Of a DNA stretch of 64,000 nucleotides, positions 9,550 to 38,269 are shown piece by piece. Source of the DNA: Phycisphaeraceae bacterium (GTDB lineage Bacteria; Planctomycetota; Phycisphaerae; Phycisphaerales; SM1A02); assembly GCA_015709595.1 (NCBI GenBank), contig CP054178.1, positions 372,001 to 436,000 of the forward strand. Reading direction: 5' to 3'. Under the pieces are notes generated by a model that saw only the letters and a program-made list of their open reading frames with translations, had not been told where the DNA came from and searched no databases. Positions within the stretch are counted from its first letter, which is position 1; each line of letters begins with the position of its first letter. A program made the position numbers and the translations under genes.

Positions 9550-10329
9550 ATGATCTCACGCGAGCATCTCATCGATGCACTCTCCAGGTCGTTGCCTCAG
9601 TCCCTCGAGGTGAAGGCCGCATGGCTGGCGGGCAGCCAGGCCACCGGGCGGCTGGACGAATGGTCCGACATCGACCTGATGCTGCTTGTGGAGGATGACG
9701 CCGTCGATGTCGCCATCAAACTCGTGGAGGCGACGCTCACAACCCTTTCAACCATCGCGCTTCGATACCGCGTCCCCGAACCAGCATGGCACGGCCATTC
9801 GCAGGTCTTCTACCAACTGACGGATGCGCCCCAATGGCTGATGGTGGATGTGCTGCTCATGAAACGGACCACCAGCAACTGGTTCCTCGAACCGGAGCGG
9901 CACGGCACGCCCACCGTGTTGTTCGACCGCGAGGGACTGGTGAAGCCGGCAACGCTCGACCGGGCGGTCCATCAGCGGCAGATTGACGCCAAACTCGCTG
10001 ACCTGCGGGTGAAGTTCGTCATGTTCCAGCATCTGATCCGCAAGAGCATCCGGCGCAGGAACCCCGCCGAAGCCGTGGCGTTCTATCACGCCCTCACGCT
10101 GCGCCCGCTGGTGGAACTGCTGCGCATCCGGCATTGCCCCGAACGGTTCGACTATGGTCTGCGATATCTCCACGACGACCTGCCGCCCGGCATGGCGGAG
10201 CGTGTGAATGACCTGTCGCTGATCGTCGATCTGGAAGATCTGGAGCGCAAGCACGCGGCGTGCCTCGCCTGGTTCGATGAGACCCTGGATGCCCTGGAAA
10301 CCGGCTCGCCAGCGACGCCGATCGGTTGA
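9550..10329 (+). CDS. Nucleotidyltransferase-domain protein
   Basis: A 259-residue protein with the DNA polymerase beta-like minimal nucleotidyltransferase motif at its N-terminus: [16 protein letters not shown] (residues 28-43), giving the GS...DxD metal-binding pair Asp40/Asp42. A third acidic residue would come from the ML-V-D-VLLM strand. The remainder is helical, like aminoglycoside-adenylyltransferase-type or stand-alone NTase proteins; the substrate is not evident. The ATG is preceded at 9541-9546 by a perfect AGGAGG. Upstream open frame on this strand is a shadow of typA. Confidence 0.75.
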
Positions 10330-28115: not shown

Positions 28116-29456
28116 CTACCCAAGATCGCGCGCCATCTCCTCGCTCGTGGCCGGTGACGCCTGCGTGCCGGGCGGGTTGGCGTACCAGCCGGGGTCGTCG
28201 TAGGACGTGATTCCCTCGCGCACCTTCAGAATCGTGAACATGCCGCCCATGGTGATGTAATCGTGCGGCCCGCGGGCCCCGATCATGGGGATGCTGTTGG
28301 GCGGGTTGCGCATGCCCATCTCGCCCATGTCGCCCATGCCGTGGTGGCCCATGGTCATATAGCCGGGCAGCACGGGGCGGTAGCGCTGGTCGAAGTCGCC
28401 GGGATCGACGCCGATCATGTTCGGGATGCCGTGGCCCATCTGGTTCATCACGTGGTGGGTCATGTGACAGTGCATGGCCCAGTCGCCGGGCTCATCGGCG
28501 ATGAACTCCACCGAGCGCGTGCTGCCCACGGGCACGAGCACGGTGGTCTCGGGCCACTGCGCCGAAGGCGGAATGTCGCCTCCATCGGTGGCCGTGGTGA
28601 TGAAGTGGTAGCCGTGCAGGTGAATGGGGTGATGATCCATGGCGCTCAGGTTGCCGAAGCGAAGCCGGACGCGATCCCCTCGTTTGGCCACCAGCGGCGA
28701 AGTGCCGGGGAAGCACTTCGCGTTGAGCGTGAGCACGTTGAAGTCAAGCATCACGTTCGGGTCGGGCCGGTAGGTGCCCGGCGTGATGGCCCACTCACTG
28801 AGCATGAACACGAAATCGCGATCGACGCGGTACCCCTCGCCCGCATCGCGCGGATGGACCACGATCATGCCCATCATACCCATGCCCATCTGGGTCATCT
28901 CGTCGTGATGCGAGTGGTACATGAACGTGCCATGCTGGCGGAAGGTCCACTCGTACTTGAACGTCTCGCCCGGCTGGATGGCCTTCTGGTTGAGTCCGCC
29001 CACGCCGTCCATGCCGCTGGGCAGATAAATGCCGTGCCAGTGCACGGTGGTTGGCGCGTGCAGCCGGTTGGTGACGTAGATGCGCACGCGGTCGCCTTCG
29101 ACCGCCTCGATGGTCGGGCCGTGCACGCGCCCGTTGTAGCCCCAGCATCGCCCGCGAAGCCCGGGCGCGAACTCATGATCCACTTCCTCCGCGATCAGGT
29201 GATACACCTTGACGCCGTCCACCACCTTCCAGGGGAGCGCCGCGCCATCGGGCGTGATGACCGGCGTGTAATCGCGCCCCGGCTGACCGGGCGGCAGGAG
29301 CGGGCCATTCTTCGGGCCGCCGCTGTAGGAGCGCGACCACCGGTCATCCTGCGCGATCGGGCGACTCGCACGCGTGAAGGCCCGGGGCAGCAGCGCCCCG
29401 CCCGGCGCCGCGGCGGCCGCCGCGCCACTCAGCAGCATCTCTCGTCGTGTGAACAT
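28116..29456 (-). CDS. Tat-exported multicopper oxidase (CopA/CueO-like)
   Basis: A 446-residue periplasmic copper oxidase, probably oxidising Cu(I) or organic substrates. It has a twin-arginine signal (TRREMLLSG, residues 3-11). All four copper-ligand motifs are present: HWHG (139-142), HSHH (181-184), HPIHLHG (276-282) and HCHMTHHVMNQM (329-340), giving the type 1 His-Cys-His plus Met340 axial ligand and the trinuclear histidines. Methionine clusters (MTQMGMGMMGM at 187-197; MTMGHHGMGDMGEMGM at 367-382) suit Cu(I) capture. The start at 29456 is chosen because it gives the Tat signal; SD GGGAGG lies inside the end of the TolC-like gene, one base upstream of this start. Confidence 0.93.
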   Translation of the reverse strand: MFTRREMLLSGAAAAAAPGGALLPRAFTRASRPIAQDDRWSRSYSGGPKNGPLLPPGQPGRDYTPVITPDGAALPWKVVDGVKVYHLIAEEVDHEFAPGLRGRCWGYNGRVHGPTIEAVEGDRVRIYVTNRLHAPTTVHWHGIYLPSGMDGVGGLNQKAIQPGETFKYEWTFRQHGTFMYHSHHDEMTQMGMGMMGMIVVHPRDAGEGYRVDRDFVFMLSEWAITPGTYRPDPNVMLDFNVLTLNAKCFPGTSPLVAKRGDRVRLRFGNLSAMDHHPIHLHGYHFITTATDGGDIPPSAQWPETTVLVPVGSTRSVEFIADEPGDWAMHCHMTHHVMNQMGHGIPNMIGVDPGDFDQRYRPVLPGYMTMGHHGMGDMGEMGMRNPPNSIPMIGARGPHDYITMGGMFTILKVREGITSYDDPGWYANPPGTQASPATSEEMARDLG

Positions 29457-29457
29457 G

Positions 29458-30879
29458 TCAGTGACCTCCCGCGGCGGCGCCGGCTGGGGCGCCCGACTCC
29501 ATCGACGATCCATTCGCACTGAGATCGCCCGGCGCGCTGCCGCCCGCGAGAATGGCGTCCATCTCGCCCCGCGCCAGCCAGTAGTCGCGCAGCGCCTCGA
29601 TGAGGCGGCGACCGGCGTCGATCTCGGCCTGCCGCACCTGAATCAGTTGCACGGCCCCGATCTGCATGGCGTTGTAGTCCAGCAGCGTTTCGCGGTAGAT
29701 GCGGCGCCGCAGCGGCACCAGCACGTCGCGATGGTGGAGCGCGATCTCGCGCGCCGCGCTCAGACGATCGCGCGCCGCCCGCGCCGCGGCGCGAACTTCC
29801 ACCGCCGTCGCGTAGTGCTCGTGCATCGCCCGTCGAAGGTTGGATGATGCGATGGCCCGCCGCGCCTGCCCCTGGTCGAACAGCGGGATCGGCAGTTCGA
29901 TCTCCGGCCCGATTTCCCATTCGCCCTCGTCGCGCGTCGCCTCCGCGCCGACCTCGAGGAACTCCAGCAGCGCGGTGCGGTCGGTGAGCCCCGCGCGGGC
30001 CGCCGCCGCATCCACACGCAAGCGCCCGGCGGCCAGCGCCAGACTGCGCTCCACGGCCACGCGCTCGACATCATCGGGCAGCGACTCCGTCTCCGGAATG
30101 TCGGGCAGACGCAGCGCCAGCCGCCACTCGGTCTGTCCGCCCCATGTGCCCATCAGGATGTTGAGCTGCTCGCGCGCCGCCCGACGTTCGGCCTCGGCGA
30201 ACGCGGCGCGCAGCCGCGCTTCTTCCAATGCCGCCTGCTCCACCGCCACATCCAGATCGCGCACGTTGCCCGCCCGGTGCAGCCGCGTGACGAACTCCAG
30301 CGAGGCCTCCGACGCCAGCAGCACCTGCTTCCACAGTTCGACCGACTGTTCCGCGGCTTGCGCGCGGATGAACGCCGCGTGGGTTCGCGCGGCGTGATCG
30401 ATCACGGCCGCCGCGACGTCGGCCTGCGCCGCCTCGTACGACGCCTCCGCCGCCCGCACCCGCAGCGGCATGGCGAACACGTCCAGGAAACTCCACGCCA
30501 CGCCGAACGCCAGGTTCGTGCCATGACCCGCCTCGAGGAACTCCGCGCCCGCGCTGAACACGGGGTTGCGCAGCAGCCCCGCCTGCACCAGCATGGCCTG
30601 CGCCACGCCGAGGTCTTCGTACAGCGCCTGCAGCCGCCGGTTGTTGAGCAGGGCCACTTGCACGGCGTGCGGCGCCTCCAGTTCGGCCGCCAGCAACTCG
30701 GCGATTCGTGCGTCCGCCGCGTCATCCTCCGCCGCGCCGGTGCGCCAGTGAATGCCATGGTCGGTGCGATCGCCGATCGTCGATTGCACGTTCTCGAAGC
30801 CCGGCCGCGCATCCGGCGCCGCGCAGCTGGTCGTCAATGCGATGGCGACGATGGCGGGCACGATTCGTCGCGCCTTCAT
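29458..30879 (-). CDS. TolC/CusC-like outer-membrane efflux lipoprotein
   Basis: A 473-residue outer-membrane channel protein. The signal peptide ends at a lipobox (ALTTSC, Cys19), as in CusC-type factors. Two outer-membrane-efflux repeats follow, recognisable from VQVALLNNRRLQALYEDLG, AQADVAAAVIDHAARTHAAF and the second-half counterpart ALAAGRLRVDAAAARAGLT with the long Ala/Arg-rich helices of the periplasmic barrel. Partner RND pump (CusA) and adaptor (CusB) genes are absent from the window, so the transport partner is unknown. ATGA overlap with the upstream HMBD gene and one-base gap to the oxidase downstream indicate a tightly coupled operon. Confidence 0.88.
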   Translation of the reverse strand: MKARRIVPAIVAIALTTSCAAPDARPGFENVQSTIGDRTDHGIHWRTGAAEDDAADARIAELLAAELEAPHAVQVALLNNRRLQALYEDLGVAQAMLVQAGLLRNPVFSAGAEFLEAGHGTNLAFGVAWSFLDVFAMPLRVRAAEASYEAAQADVAAAVIDHAARTHAAFIRAQAAEQSVELWKQVLLASEASLEFVTRLHRAGNVRDLDVAVEQAALEEARLRAAFAEAERRAAREQLNILMGTWGGQTEWRLALRLPDIPETESLPDDVERVAVERSLALAAGRLRVDAAAARAGLTDRTALLEFLEVGAEATRDEGEWEIGPEIELPIPLFDQGQARRAIASSNLRRAMHEHYATAVEVRAAARAARDRLSAAREIALHHRDVLVPLRRRIYRETLLDYNAMQIGAVQLIQVRQAEIDAGRRLIEALRDYWLARGEMDAILAGGSAPGDLSANGSSMESGAPAGAAAGGH

Positions 30880-31262
30880 GGCTGATGATCCTTGTGGTCG
30901 TGCGGCTTGCCTGTCGGCACCAGCTTCATGCCGCACTCGGGACAGCGCGACGGCTCGTCGCTGACGACCTCCGGATGCATGGGACAGACGTAGGCGGCCT
31001 GCTTCGGCGTTTTACCGGTCGAAGGCGGCGGCGGCTCGCCGGCGCCCAGGTGACCCGGGTGATCGTGGTTCATCTCGCCGCCCGATTTGGCTGGCGCAGG
31101 CCCGATGGCCGATGTGAACACCGACCCGTTCGCTGCACGCCCCGCCGACGCCTCGGGATGCCCCGGGTGTTCGCGATCCGGCGTCCACTCGCCCTGATGT
31201 GACGCGCACCCGCCCAGCAGGGCCATGACCGCCGCCCATGTCAGTGTGTTCCGTGTCACCAT
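30876..31262 (-). CDS. Heavy-metal-binding (HMBD) lipoprotein
   Basis: A 128-residue lipoprotein: lipobox ALLGGC (Cys19), a His/Pro/Gly-rich linker (DREHPGHPE, NHDHPGHLG), then one HMBD zinc-ribbon-like domain at 91-114 with YVCPMHPEVV and CPECGMKL, and a His-Asp-Lys tail. HMBD domains normally precede CusB adaptors or CopA ATPases; here the domain is stand-alone and probably scavenges Cu(I) or Ag(I) in the periplasm. The frame is open to 31328, but the ATG at 31262 places the lipobox correctly. It overlaps the TolC-like gene by 4 bp. Confidence 0.85.
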   Translation of the reverse strand: MVTRNTLTWAAVMALLGGCASHQGEWTPDREHPGHPEASAGRAANGSVFTSAIGPAPAKSGGEMNHDHPGHLGAGEPPPPSTGKTPKQAAYVCPMHPEVVSDEPSRCPECGMKLVPTGKPHDHKDHQP

Positions 31263-31367
31263 CGAGTCACTCCCCGCGCGCAAGAACAGACGTCCCCGGA
31301 GAATGGGCCGGGCGATGACGCGCATCACCCGGCCCGATGTCGTGTGCGAGGGCGCGATCGCCGCCGA

Positions 31368-32078
31368 TCAGCCGCCCTTGCCGTGATGCTCCGCGTGGCC
31401 GGTGCCTGTGCCCTGTCCGGCCTTCTCGTGCTGCTTCTTCCACGCGGCGTCGAGCGTAGCGACGTGCTTGGCCGCGTCTTTCATCAGCCCCTTCTTGCAG
31501 CCGCCGCAGCACAGCCGCACCAGGCGGTTGCCGATGACGACCTCAACCGGCTCGCCCATGCCGCCCAGTTCCTCGCCGGAGACGAGGCAGGTCTTCAGCG
31601 GGTAATGCTCGCGCTGCTTCTCGATGACCTTCTTGTCCAACTCGGCGAGAAACTTCTCCGGCTCGGCGTTGAACTTGCGGGCGCACATGCGGCAGCACAC
31701 CTTCACCAGCCGGTTGCGGTGGACGATCTCGATGGTCTTGCCCTCTTCGAGGGCATCGCCGCGCACCACGCAGGTGTCGAGCGGGTAGTAGTGCTGCTGC
31801 TGCCTGGCGAGTTCGGCGTCGATCTTCTTGAAGTACGTCGCCTTGTCGGCCTCGAGCTTGGCGATGCAGGGCTCGCAGCAGAAGCGGACTTCGCGCCCGT
31901 CGATCTCCTTCACCACCGGGTCGCCCATCGACCCCAGTTCCTTGCCCGTGACGGGGCAGGTGGTCAGGGTGTACGGATCGCTCTTGCGATCCTCGACGGT
32001 GGCCGCGGCGGCCGCCAGCAGGCCCGCGCCGAACAGCGCGGCGGCGAAACAAGAAAGAACCTTGGTCATGCGCTTCAT
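31368..32078 (-). CDS. Exported protein with three tandem CC-x2-C metal-binding modules
   Basis: A 236-residue protein: signal peptide (1-26), then three ~60-residue repeats at about 36-94, 98-156 and 159-218. Each has a Y-x-L-x-T-C-x-V-x-G start, a strand with NRLVK/RxV, a Cys pair and a helix ending in LD...Q. Cysteines: 41/67-68-71, 103/128-129-132, 164/190-191-194, i.e. C-x24/25-CC-x2-C. This looks like the YHS/TRASH-type metal-binding fold in triplicate, with a His-rich tail (HAEHHGKGG). It probably binds copper or another soft metal outside the membrane. SD AGGAG precedes the ATG. It lies 105 nt upstream of the HMBD gene. Confidence 0.8.
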   Translation of the reverse strand: MKRMTKVLSCFAAALFGAGLLAAAAATVEDRKSDPYTLTTCPVTGKELGSMGDPVVKEIDGREVRFCCEPCIAKLEADKATYFKKIDAELARQQQHYYPLDTCVVRGDALEEGKTIEIVHRNRLVKVCCRMCARKFNAEPEKFLAELDKKVIEKQREHYPLKTCLVSGEELGGMGEPVEVVIGNRLVRLCCGGCKKGLMKDAAKHVATLDAAWKKQHEKAGQGTGTGHAEHHGKGG

Positions 32079-32116
32079 GGTGATGCTCCTTCGTGTGAAC
32101 AGGTGGTGGAATCGTA

Positions 32117-32962
32117 TCAGAAGAGAATGCGGAACCCCACGCCCAGTGTGTACGCCATTGGCGGGCGGTGATCGACGTCATCCAGCACGGGCAGCTGGAT
32201 CGACGCCTCGAACACCCAGTTGCGGGCCTCGTACATGATGCCCGGCCCGATCATCCACTCGTGATCGCCGTTGGTCTCGTACGTGCCGTTCAGTTCCGCC
32301 ATCAGGTACCACGCGCCTTTCGTGTCGGCGGTGTACTGCGGGGGGTCGATGCGGTAGAGATACGCGAAGTCGGCGTAGAGGATGTCATCCTTGCTGTCGC
32401 CGGCGCGGACGAACGACTCGCGCTCGCCGGTGTTGAACTTCCAGCGCAGGGCGGCGTTGACGCCGTGCCGTCCCTGAATGCTGGTGAATACCACGCCGAT
32501 CATCGGATCCCACGATTCGTTGCCGAAGGGATGCTTGCCGGTGGGAATGTCCAGCCCCGCGAGAATGCTGAAGCGCATGGTGTCGATCGGCCCGGTGTCG
32601 TGCTTCCACACGCGCCACTTGGCCATCAGATGCAGGTCGCCGAAGTGAAAATCGGTGGATTCGGTGTCGCTCACGCGCTCCTCCGCCCGGCGGTGAATGA
32701 GCGGAATGTTGAGAATCAGCGACAGGTCGTGCGTCAGCCCGTGGGCGATGGTGGTGTCCACCTGGAAGTCGTTGACCACGCGATCGAGATCGGTGGGGTC
32801 ATCCTCCAGCCGGATGAACTGGTACGTCTGCCGCACCATCGTCACGCCCGGCGAGGGCTGCGCGGCGGAGATGTTGTGGAAGGACTGCTGCGCCGATGCG
32901 GCGCCGCTGACGAGCAAGGCGCCCACAATGGACAGACAGGTGACAGTGCGTTGGATGGGCAT
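32117..32962 (-). CDS. Outer-membrane beta-barrel transporter-like protein
   Basis: A 281-residue protein with a signal peptide (cleavage after about residue 24, GAASAQQ), then alternating beta strands rich in aromatic residues ending in a C-terminal Phe (GVGFRILF), the signature of outer-membrane barrels. The pattern (HGLTHDLSLILNIPLIHRR, FSILAGLDIPTGKHPFG) is like the 'MetA-pathway of phenol degradation'/transporter family, often found beside copper genes in planctomycetes. The solute is unknown; the context suggests metal or metal-complex passage. SD AGGAG lies 6 nt before the ATG. It is 38 nt upstream of the triple-module gene. Confidence 0.75.
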   Translation of the reverse strand: MPIQRTVTCLSIVGALLVSGAASAQQSFHNISAAQPSPGVTMVRQTYQFIRLEDDPTDLDRVVNDFQVDTTIAHGLTHDLSLILNIPLIHRRAEERVSDTESTDFHFGDLHLMAKWRVWKHDTGPIDTMRFSILAGLDIPTGKHPFGNESWDPMIGVVFTSIQGRHGVNAALRWKFNTGERESFVRAGDSKDDILYADFAYLYRIDPPQYTADTKGAWYLMAELNGTYETNGDHEWMIGPGIMYEARNWVFEASIQLPVLDDVDHRPPMAYTLGVGFRILF

Positions 32963-32998
32963 GTGAACTCCTGATCCAATCAACAAACGACTCGTCCG

Positions 32999-33200
32999 TG
33001 CGCCGCGGCTCTGTGAGCCATGTTCGGGTGTGCCACGGCTCTGTGAGCCGTGCGTGCGTCCCTCGATGACCAACCATGCAGGGTGTGCCGTGTACGACTT
33101 CATCACTTCCGCTCCGCGCATCACTCGCGCGCCCGCACGGCCGACACGGCCGTGGCACACGACATGGCGCGCCCGCACGGCCGACACGACCGTGGCACAC
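32999..33200. repeat. Cluster of palindromic dispersed repeats
   Basis: Two copies of an element with core GGCTCTGTGAGCC (33001-33022 and 33031-33052; the second has perfect arms CACGGCTC-TGT-GAGCCGTG). There are also two 32-bp copies at 33129-33160 and 33169-33200, period 40, with core CACGGCCGACACGGCCGTG. They occupy most of the 247-bp gap between the barrel gene and the HMA lipoprotein gene, and split the metal cluster into two likely transcripts. Confidence 0.8.
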
Positions 33201-33209
33201 TTCGATCGA

Positions 33210-33566
33210 TCACGGCGTCTCGACTTTCACCAGCGTGAAGCCGCTCTGATCCACGGCTCGCGCCAGGGCGGCATACGTGGGCGGATTGGCCTTGTCCACA
33301 TGGACTTTCACCGCGCCGTCGGCGAGGTTGATGTTGACGTCCGTCACGCCGCGCACGCGCCGCAACAGCAGGTCGATGTTGTTGGCGCAGAGCGGGCACG
33401 ACATGCCATGCACGATCATCGTCACAGGTGACTGACGGACCGGCTCATCAGTCACACCGGCGGACGCGCCGGTCATCGAATCGCCGGTGGTCCTGGTCGA
33501 ACTGCAGCCCGGCAACACAAGGAGGGCGGCGGCCATCACGGCCATGAACGGAATTTGGAATCGCAT
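33210..33566 (-). CDS. HMA-domain lipoprotein
   Basis: A 118-residue lipoprotein. The lipobox is VLPGC (Cys21), followed by a short polar linker and a single heavy-metal-associated ferredoxin-like domain (about 47-116) with the metal loop GMSCPLC (Cys57, Cys60) and the strand-helix pattern ending GFTLVKVE. CopZ-like domains bind Cu(I); placing one on a lipid anchor outside the cytoplasm is unusual, since they usually serve P-type ATPases inside. SD GGGGAG. It is separated from the 126-residue gene upstream by 116 bp and from the barrel gene downstream by the repeat cluster. Confidence 0.85.
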   Translation of the reverse strand: MRFQIPFMAVMAAALLVLPGCSSTRTTGDSMTGASAGVTDEPVRQSPVTMIVHGMSCPLCANNIDLLLRRVRGVTDVNINLADGAVKVHVDKANPPTYAALARAVDQSGFTLVKVETP

Positions 33567-33682
33567 GACGGGTTCATCTCCCCGGCCTCGCTCTTCCGAG
33601 GGGAGGCGGACCGGCAGGGTCAGTGGTTGATGGAGTGACGAGCACGCCGCAGGGCGCGCAAGGGCGGCGCGAATGAGCGCGC

Positions 33683-34063
33683 CTAGGTCAACCAGACCCC
33701 GATGAACGCGTGGAAGCGGGCGCCCGCCACGGGGCGATGGACCCCGGCGAACACGGGCATGAAGGGGCGATGACTCGACCCGTCGATGCTGAACACGATC
33801 CGTCCCACCACGGGGGGCGAAGGCAGTTCCCACCGCTCGTTCGCCTGCGGCCGGGGCGTGGGGGCCACGGGTCGCTGCTCCGGCTCGGCGGGCCTGGCGC
33901 AGGGGCAGGCATCCACCGGGCAACACGGGCAAACGCCGCCGCACGTGCCGGGCGTGCCCACGACCATCCCCGCATCACCCGCATTCAGCGCGGCCATACC
34001 CCACGCGATGGACATCGCCGGGGTCAGCAGCAGCAGGATGGCGAGCAGGAATCGAAGAGCCAT
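33683..34063 (-). CDS. Small exported Cys-cluster protein
   Basis: A 126-residue protein not matching a family I know. It has a hydrophobic N-terminal segment (about 3-24; signal peptide or anchor), then a dense cysteine cluster, CGGVCPCCPVDACPC (Cys 41, 45, 47, 48, 53, 55), a Pro-rich spacer and a beta-like C-terminal region. The cluster looks suited to soft-metal binding, and the position at the head of the metal-handling block supports this by context only. The ATG lies 7 nt from a minus-strand TAGGAT box (34071-34076), so it is probably leaderless and first in the block. Confidence 0.6.
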   Translation of the reverse strand: MALRFLLAILLLLTPAMSIAWGMAALNAGDAGMVVGTPGTCGGVCPCCPVDACPCARPAEPEQRPVAPTPRPQANERWELPSPPVVGRIVFSIDGSSHRPFMPVFAGVHRPVAGARFHAFIGVWLT

Positions 34064-34070
34064 GAAGGGA

Positions 34071-34076
34071 ATCCTA
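34071..34076 (-). promoter_or_regulatory. -10 box for the metal-handling block (leaderless first gene)
   Basis: TAGGAT on the minus strand, seven bases before the ATG at 34063. Confidence 0.45.
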
Positions 34077-37297: not shown

Positions 37298-38269
37298 ATG
37301 CCACGTTCACGCGCTGTTCTTGCGCTCACCTGCGGCGCCCTCATCACCGGCACTCTCGCCGCCGCCTCGAATGACCCCTGGAGCACCTCGTGCAGCAGCG
37401 CCAAGAGCGCGCCGGAGTCGGTGCAGTGGGCCATTCCCGCCGAAGCCGGCGACATCATCGACACCGCGGTCGGCGCGGGGAAGTTCAACACCCTGGCCGC
37501 GGCCCTCAAGGCGGCGGGTCTGATTGACGCCCTCAAGGGGCCAGGACCCTTCACGGTGTTCGCCCCGACTGATGAGGCGTTCGCCAAGCTGCCCAAGGGC
37601 ACGGTGGAGAACCTGCTGAAGCCGGAGAACAAGGCGCTTCTCACCTCGATTCTGACGTACCACGTGGTGTCGGGTAAGGCGCCTGCATCAGCCGTCATCA
37701 GCAGGAACGGCTGGATCACGCTGAGCGGCCAGCGGATCGACATCGCCATCAGCAACGGCAAGGTGATGGTGGATAATGCCGCCGTCACACAGGCGGACAT
37801 CATGGCCAGCAACGGCGTGATTCACGTCATCGACACGGTCATCCTGCCGGAGACGAAGAACATTGTTGAGATCGCCTCGGGCGCGAAGACCTTCGGCACG
37901 CTGCTCGCAGCGGTGAAAGCGGCTGGCCTTGCCGATGTGCTGATGGGCGAAGGGCCGTTCACAGTGCTGGCGCCGACGGATGAGGCGTTCTCGAAGCTGC
38001 CGCCCGGCACGGTGGAATCGCTGCTCAAGCCGGAGAACCGTGAGAAACTGGTGGCGATCCTGACGTACCACGTCATCCCCGGCCGCGCCTACGCCAAGGA
38101 TGCGGTGGCGGCGGAGACGGCGGCGACGATCGAGGGCTCGAAGGTGCGCTTCCGCGTGGTCGATGGGCGACTGACCGCCAGCGGGGCCAACGTCGTGGCC
38201 ACGGACATCGAGGCCAGCAACGGCGTGATCCACGTCATCGACGCGGTTATCATGCCCGGGCTGAATTGA
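37298..38269 (+). CDS. Secreted protein with two fasciclin (FAS1) domains
   Basis: A 323-residue exported protein: signal peptide (about 1-23), short linker with two cysteines, then FAS1 domains at about 50-185 and 188-323. Each has the H1 motif ([19 protein letters not shown] / [19 protein letters not shown]), the YHVVSG / YHVIPG strand and the H2 motif [14 protein letters not shown] / [17 protein letters not shown]1 proteins act in adhesion or matrix binding. The SD AAGGAG precedes the ATG. It sits three bases upstream of an ECF sigma gene, so it may be an output or co-regulated target of that system. Confidence 0.93.

Follow-up and report, generated by a model that had tools for sequence, protein, structure and literature searches.

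We analysed a stretch of 64,000 nucleotides from the chromosome of a Phycisphaeraceae bacterium (CP054178.1, positions 372,001 to 436,000; hereafter the window), focusing on a block of seven genes at 28116–34076 that appears to handle copper outside the cytoplasm. The source genome is a single contig of 3.84 Mb, in which the block lies at 400–406 kb. All seven open reading frames (ORFs) were present, every one on the minus strand, and Pfam families were assigned to six of the seven proteins. The block consists of two conserved modules lying side by side rather than one seven-gene unit. Module A begins with a Cys-rich exported protein (33683..34063), a candidate copper-sensing leader and the only protein of the block without a Pfam or NCBIfam family above cut-off. 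It is followed by an HMA-domain lipoprotein (33210..33566; PF00403, 33.3 bits, cut-off 24.8), in which the motif GMSCPLC supplies the CxxC as CPLC, and by an outer-membrane barrel of the Phenol_MetA_deg or transporter type (32117..32962; PF13557, 46.8 bits, cut-off 22). Module B starts with an exported protein carrying three TRASH/YHS-like CC-x2-C motifs (31368..32078; PF24273, 30.9 bits, cut-off 27) and a small lipoprotein with a C-terminal HMBD (30876..31262; PF19335, about 55 bits, 55.1–55.5, cut-off 23.6), in which the stretch REHPGHPEA follows the lipobox Cys. These precede a TolC/CusC-fold outer-membrane factor (OEP), also a lipoprotein (29458..30879; PF02321, 104.8 bits, cut-off 22), and a two-domain multicopper oxidase (MCO) with a Met-rich segment, predicted to be exported by the twin-arginine (Tat) route (28116..29456; PF07732 and PF07731, 131.5 and 100.4 bits). 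The HMBD and OEP genes share four bases, and the OEP and MCO genes are one base apart.

Signal peptides and lipoboxes of the block proteins were read by eye, as was the start of the MCO (MFTRREM, Tat-type), whose reading frame stays open to 29519. The block is flanked by a convergent dnaK (PF00012) after the MCO gene and by a divergent endonuclease/exonuclease/phosphatase gene (PF03372) on the other side. ORF and Pfam/profile searches found no resistance-nodulation-division (RND) pump, ATPase or DNA-binding regulator within the block. The arrangement is more than chance, because its parts recur in the same order in other loci, and the block is presumed to be co-transcribed as one operon. An earlier preliminary description of this DNA had listed seven same-strand genes with these overlaps, with neither an RND pump nor a cytoplasmic regulator among them, and had placed HMA and HMBD modules on lipoproteins. 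All three points were borne out. As to conservation of gene order in relatives, the order is kept for the core genes but not for the seven genes as one unit.

The AlphaFold model of the MCO comprises two cupredoxin domains with a mean predicted local distance difference test (pLDDT) score of 78; confidence was low for the signal region and for the Met-rich segment. The top Foldseek matches in the PDB were two-domain MCOs (2zwn, 3gdc and 3g5w), and the protein scored below the cut-offs of both the CueO model NF008205 (89.4 of 525 bits) and the CopA-PcoA model TIGR01480 (170.1 of 478.95 bits). Among 32 aligned sequences, the expected copper ligands H139, H141, H181, H183, H275/H276, H279 and H281, and further H329, C330, H331, H335 and M340, were invariant, as were M367, M369, M374, M382 and M403 of the Met-rich segment. 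With two cupredoxin domains and a full set of T1/T2/T3 ligands, the protein is, on its predicted structure, a two-domain multicopper oxidase. Solved enzymes of this type are homotrimers with the trinuclear site between subunits. As only two domains are present, the trinuclear site must form between subunits, and the window MCO would presumably work as a trimer.

The pairing of this oxidase with an outer-membrane channel extends well beyond the window. A neighbouring OEP, defined as an OEP or CusC-profile match on the same strand within 1.5 kb, was found for 136 of 147 MCOs, that of the window included, in a sample that was partly biased, since OEP similarity was the basis for choosing eight loci (L039–L046) and four of the six on plasmids; the loci from named genomes were the best 80 of 394. 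Five loci (L123, L143, L147, L160 and L195) share contigs with others; without these five the proportion was 131 of 142, and they were excluded from the tree and from the counts over 50 planctomycete and 75 named-genome loci given below. Five of the 11 MCOs without an OEP neighbour lie at a contig end. The pair occurred in records from Planctomycetota, Myxococcota, Poribacteria, Verrucomicrobiota-type and alphaproteobacterial sources, and also on plasmids of Agrobacterium, Phaeobacter, Massilia and Burkholderia and on a Simkania plasmid. The order was reversed, with the MCO first and the OEP second, for 26 of the 82 MCOs in the named set, chiefly in myxobacterial-type records.

The other members of module B were found less regularly. 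Same-strand HMBD-profile matches near the MCO (within 3 kb upstream or 1.5 kb downstream) were found in 19 of the 50 planctomycete and 25 of the 75 named-genome loci, and TRASH3-profile matches in 19 and 5, respectively. Three named Myxococcus loci (L152, L163 and L164) had the order HMBD-OEP-MCO. In several loci, inspection by eye revealed, before the OEP, a lipoprotein with no HMBD match and with an HPAxPxA stretch similar to that of the window protein. Because this small lipoprotein precedes the channel where the HMBD is missing, the OEP–MCO pair probably has a common third partner, which takes the form of an HMBD lipoprotein in the window.

The channel itself belongs to a group associated with the oxidase. 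In an OEP tree of 162 sequences (quick maximum-likelihood search, midpoint rooted; OEP matches shorter than 330 aa were left out), one clade, with a support of 94 at the split, held 117 of the 126 MCO-adjacent channels and only one of the 23 labelled as CusB-adjacent. This single CusB-adjacent member (L151) shares one ORF with its MCO; the apparent OEP–MCO fusion (860 aa) was discarded as evidence, because unresolved bases in the channel part and at the junction could hide a stop codon. The second hairpin of the MCO-linked clade mostly reads [Y/F]-N-[A/G]-M. The Met at its tip was present in 117 of 119 sequences within the clade and in none of the 43 outside it, 29 of which had Gly. The window OEP carries the motif as YNAM at residues 402–405. 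A control using the OEPs of relatives gave the same division, with Met in nine orthologues (the window's included) and Gly in the other 23 matches. In the AlphaFold model of the window OEP (pLDDT 88), Met405 is placed in the tip loop, because the helices span residues 338–403 and 409–444. In TolC, this region is both the periplasmic gate and the site where the adaptor docks. Foldseek matched the model to CusC, TolC, OprN and OprM, and the sequence missed the cut-off of the CusC/NodT subunit model TIGR01845 (27 of 210.05 bits).

Module A was mostly located away from the oxidase. Relatives of its barrel were detected in 49 of 298 genomes of the class, and in 40 of these 49 a script counted an HMA gene upstream of the barrel on the same strand at a distance of no more than 547 bp, the exceptions being G662, G048, G617, G599, G334, G658, G504, G678 and G587. 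None of 125 loci chosen by their MCO contained a barrel match above 50 bits. Among eight loci chosen by their OEP, only that of G044 (L204) joins HMA and barrel genes to OEP and MCO genes, and this locus also carries the leader. Module A is nevertheless tied to copper independently, because a CsoR-family gene adjoins it in L214 and an MCO gene in L210. The window HMA lipoprotein matched the NCBIfam UxxU family NF041115 below its cut-off. Eight relatives of this lipoprotein (L215–L222) have an in-frame TGA at the CxxC motif, giving UxxU in six and CxxU in two, and judging from these codons are probably selenoproteins. In three others (L206, L213 and L226), the C-terminus is extended by a Cys-rich tail, giving the impression that the functions of leader and HMA protein are combined in one chain.

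The Cys-rich protein at the head of module A has 126 aa, with a Sec-type signal, the cluster CGGVCPCCPVDACPC, a Pro-rich stretch and the C-terminus VWLT-stop. Relatives upstream of the HMA gene were found in 11 of 30 module-A loci (29 genomes, since L210 and L224 come from the same one), the window included, and all of them end in W-x-x-stop; they were scored by a Trp within the last six residues, with L213, L222 and a second ORF of L205 rejected by eye. A wider scan of the loci yielded 116 exported-looking Cys-cluster ORFs, some of them redundant. Where a Trp occurred within the last eight residues, it stood at position −3 in 16 of 24 cases, representing 13 distinct ORFs, one of which (L129) looks like chance. 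None of the leader-family proteins scanned reached a Pfam or NCBIfam cut-off, and a Sinorhizobium relative scored 15.1 of 23.7 bits against PF11162. By eye, the protein is exported, carries a Cys metal motif and heads a metal operon, and its conserved C-terminal W-x-x is of another kind than the ends of DUF2946, CutF and CruR. In a separate locus (L227), two successive leader-type genes (305–805 and 1327–1740), both ending in W-x-H, precede one HMA-barrel module.

By analogy with CutF, CruR and CopL, the Cys-cluster protein is somewhat more probably a copper-responsive exported leader than a storage protein. Several observations speak against this role. The leader occurs in only 11 of the 30 module-A loci, the Cys-rich exported protein of L207 lacks the W-x-x end, and that of the genome's own cusCBA cluster has a different C-terminal end. 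The window protein gave no PF11162 (DUF2946) match at E-values up to 5. An RNA stem-loop in the gap between the leader and HMA genes was considered and rejected (z −1.2; 27 of 200 shuffles folded as well or better). A structural copper-binding protein, in favour of which stand the signal sequence, the Cys cluster and the unremarkable RNA fold of this gap, has close to an even chance of being the right description. Set against it is the high divergence of the family except in the Cys cluster and the last residues; such conservation of the Trp at −3 is a pattern that would be expected of C-terminal arrest peptides. Moreover, these proteins are placed before three kinds of copper operon, namely HMA-barrel, TRASH-lipoprotein-OEP-MCO (L045) and YHS-CusB-CusA (L120), the last two represented by one case each.

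Copper pumps are encoded elsewhere on the same chromosome. A cluster at 258–275 kb (L050) contains genes for a Cys-rich protein, a YHS protein, a CusC-like OEP, a CusB with three HMBD, and CusA, followed by an HMA protein, a CsoR-family repressor (PF02583) and a P-type ATPase. A second cluster at 318–338 kb (L049) encodes a CsoR-family repressor (PF02583), a P-type ATPase, an OEP, a YHS protein and an RND protein. In both, the ATPases, repressors, CusB and CusC were backed by Pfam and the YHS proteins were named by eye. The P-type ATPases of these clusters carry an HMA domain and adjoin the CsoR-family repressors. The cusA of the first cluster (8471–12153 in L050; genome 266–270 kb) is split over two reading frames, and this copy may therefore be broken or hold a sequencing error. 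The RND gene at 334–337 kb is intact, and its product exceeded the cut-off of the heavy-metal RND model TIGR00914 (774.9 vs. 701.45 bits). The ATPase/CsoR-family parts of the two clusters look duplicated; near each lies a gene of about 310 aa that resembles its counterpart, and a transposase-like gene, named by eye, lies at 9901–11046 in L049. A scan for ATACCC-type palindromic CsoR operators gave only weak, chance-like sites in the block with at least two mismatches; it was uninformative because the genome's own csoR genes gave no site either. In the window, 37298–38269 encodes what we take to be a secreted protein resembling two fasciclin (FAS1)-type repeats; the genes after it are presumably a sigma factor/anti-sigma pair.

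These findings limit how far the block can be regarded as independent. The preliminary description had called it a self-contained route without a pump or ATPase. However, the same chromosome carries genes for P-type ATPases, CsoR-family repressors and RND proteins at a distance of about 60–140 kb. In addition, 23 of 50 planctomycete relatives had CopA or CusA matches in the flanks retrieved around the oxidase, as did 32 of the 75 named-genome loci, both counts being lower bounds because many flanks end at contig ends. As a property of the system, the lack of a pump does not hold. A cusCBA operon elsewhere with another outer-membrane factor, which the same description had named as evidence against its proposal, is largely what the genome contains, because the RND genes at 258–275 and 318–338 kb have their own outer-membrane factors; the qualification is the cusA at 266–270 kb in its two frames. 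Its broader idea was supported, namely that copper is handled outside the cytoplasm and that this involves both oxidation and a step at the outer membrane.

We consider it reasonably probable that the block couples Cu(I) oxidation to exit across the outer membrane, with two copper-defence modules in one presumed operon; the substrate, the direction of transport, the coupling between oxidase and channel and the function of the leader are what we infer. Periplasmic Cu(I), arriving from CopA-type ATPases encoded elsewhere or from outside, would be captured by the TRASH protein together with the small HMBD lipoprotein, and the two-domain Tat-exported MCO would oxidise it to Cu(II). The adjacent outer-membrane factor, which would be dedicated to the MCO and not an ordinary CusC, could then offer a route through the outer membrane to the oxidised copper, or to copper travelling on a carrier. 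Module A, with its HMA lipoprotein and small barrel, may provide an outer-membrane-associated step of copper binding or passage. In favour of this reading are the OEP–MCO pairing, the channel clade with its tip Met, the invariant copper ligands, the CopA and CusA genes near the oxidase in relatives, the published S. meliloti and M. xanthus systems described below, and the position of leader relatives at the head of copper operons.

Three results count against such a coupling. Six MCOs situated away from contig ends have no neighbouring OEP. In nine cases (L105 and eight loci from a more distantly related group of MCOs), the OEP beside the oxidase lacks the tip Met and is of the ordinary type. 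Finally, RND proteins were present in all 35 MCO-bearing genomes tested, 26 of them with a score over the TIGR00914 cut-off; these genomes were hand-picked as MCO-positive and chiefly more complete ones, with three found through their OEP, and in one of them (G196, a 91% complete draft) the best RND match listed reached only 394.8 bits. Genomes with the oxidase and no pump were sought in this set and none was obtained, and thus genome-wide RND presence could not separate the readings.

The presence of RND proteins in all 35 genomes means that the OEP could serve an RND pump, or another tripartite pump, whose genes lie elsewhere in the genome (334–337, 790, 1128 or 1151 kb) and be merely co-regulated with the oxidase. 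The RND genes at 790, 1128 and 1151 kb have no OEP match beside them, and the OEP keeps the TolC/CusC fold. Nevertheless, its clade is almost entirely linked to MCOs (117 of 126, against 1 of 23 labelled CusB-adjacent channels), the clade-specific Met sits at the tip where pump adaptors dock, and both RND clusters close to the block already possess their own OEP. We therefore regard service to a distant pump as possible but rather unlikely.

The favoured coupling of oxidation to exit could also take a more specific form, which we hold to be unlikely as a whole, namely a pump-free exit in which a trimeric MCO caps the mouth of its own trimeric OEP, together with a copper-sensing leader switch of the W-x-x type in planctomycetes. 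The TolC-type channel fold is trimeric. Given that a trimeric oxidase is expected as well, a three-on-three complex of oxidase and channel is possible. Three-fold symmetry would then meet three-fold symmetry, the contact being held, or fed with metal, by the ring of hairpin-tip Met residues and the small lipoprotein. Cu(I) would be oxidised at the entrance and Cu(II) would leave down its gradient, and copper would be sensed during translation by leader peptides, exported and rich in Cys, that form a new family. It is improbable that the block serves mainly in copper sequestration, with the Cys, TRASH, HMA and HMBD proteins as a buffer, the MCO as an oxidase and the OEP and barrel passing other substrates such as organic ligands: four of the seven proteins are likely metal binders and the family name of the barrel (PF13557) gives no evidence for a metal, but the OEP–MCO pair is kept across phyla and module A has a CsoR-family gene as its neighbour in L214 and an MCO gene in L210, so that both modules are tied to copper.

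TolC-type channels are usually thought of as parts of pumps, and CusCFBA is the obvious comparison. The block resembles it in having a TolC-fold outer-membrane lipoprotein, and HMBD also occurs in the CusB of this genome. In contrast to CusCFBA/CusCBA, the block contains neither adaptor nor pump, and its OEP groups in a different clade, in which the tip residue is Met where Gly is usual. CueO and PcoA are Tat-exported and have a four-copper ligand set and a Met-rich segment. The block MCO shares these three features with CueO and PcoA-CopA, whereas it has two cupredoxin domains, not three.

The ‘MCO operon’ of Sinorhizobium meliloti CCNWSX0020 (omp, cueO, an azurin-like gene and a copper chaperone gene) is copper-induced (Lu et al. 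2017; Li et al. 2013; via PMC6266702), and Cu(I) oxidation followed by Cu(II) export over the outer membrane has been proposed for it (PMC6266702). Both this operon and the block pair an MCO gene with a same-strand gene for an outer-membrane protein; the S. meliloti Omp is likened to the block OEP by this gene pairing, not by clade placement. The block differs in having HMBD and TRASH proteins and an attached module A, and no azurin-like or chaperone gene follows its MCO, dnaK lying there convergently. Among the relatives found here, a Sinorhizobium plasmid encodes a Cys-rich exported protein, a small lipoprotein, an OEP and an MCO.

In Myxococcus xanthus, the outer membrane efflux protein MXAN_3424 is linked to the copper-induced cuoB under CorE, with the HMA protein gene MXAN_3427 nearby (PMC3107203); the curA operon is treated in a further paper (PMC3707914). 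An efflux protein gene with an MCO gene and an HMA gene in the vicinity recalls the block, and this likeness concerns gene pairing, not the CuoB sequence. The M. xanthus system differs in being controlled by a copper-dependent sigma factor. In Bradyrhizobium, a Tn5 screen for copper tolerance hit a tolC gene and an MCO gene, which are not described as adjacent in the text consulted (PMC5057107).

Copper genes are regulated by CutF, CruR and CopL, which act as nascent chains in export or as upstream ORFs, and cutFOG, headed by a CutF-type leader, includes an MCO (PMC9973294; PMC9426467). Like these proteins (DUF2946), the candidate leader of the window is a small exported protein with a Cys motif and a conserved C-terminal motif that heads a copper operon. 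In contrast to them, it has no PF11162 match and ends in W-x-x-stop rather than in a proline-rich or RAPP motif.

Among titles and abstract starts in open-licence PubMed Central, we recognised no paper naming an oxidase-linked TolC clade and none on planctomycete copper systems of this kind, in searches aimed at these two subjects. The channel–oxidase pairing as such is already in print for S. meliloti and M. xanthus. Our analysis adds to it a dedicated channel clade, the tip Met, a two-domain oxidase and a leader family, each of them specific and testable. The leader family is the freshest of these and the weakest-tested, and it offers a concrete candidate for the control of planctomycete copper genes in an operon without a regulator. 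Compared with pump-bound channels of the CusC type, a channel clade linked to an oxidase through gene order, with its own residue at the docking tip, makes the idea of a channel with an enzyme in place of a pump directly testable.

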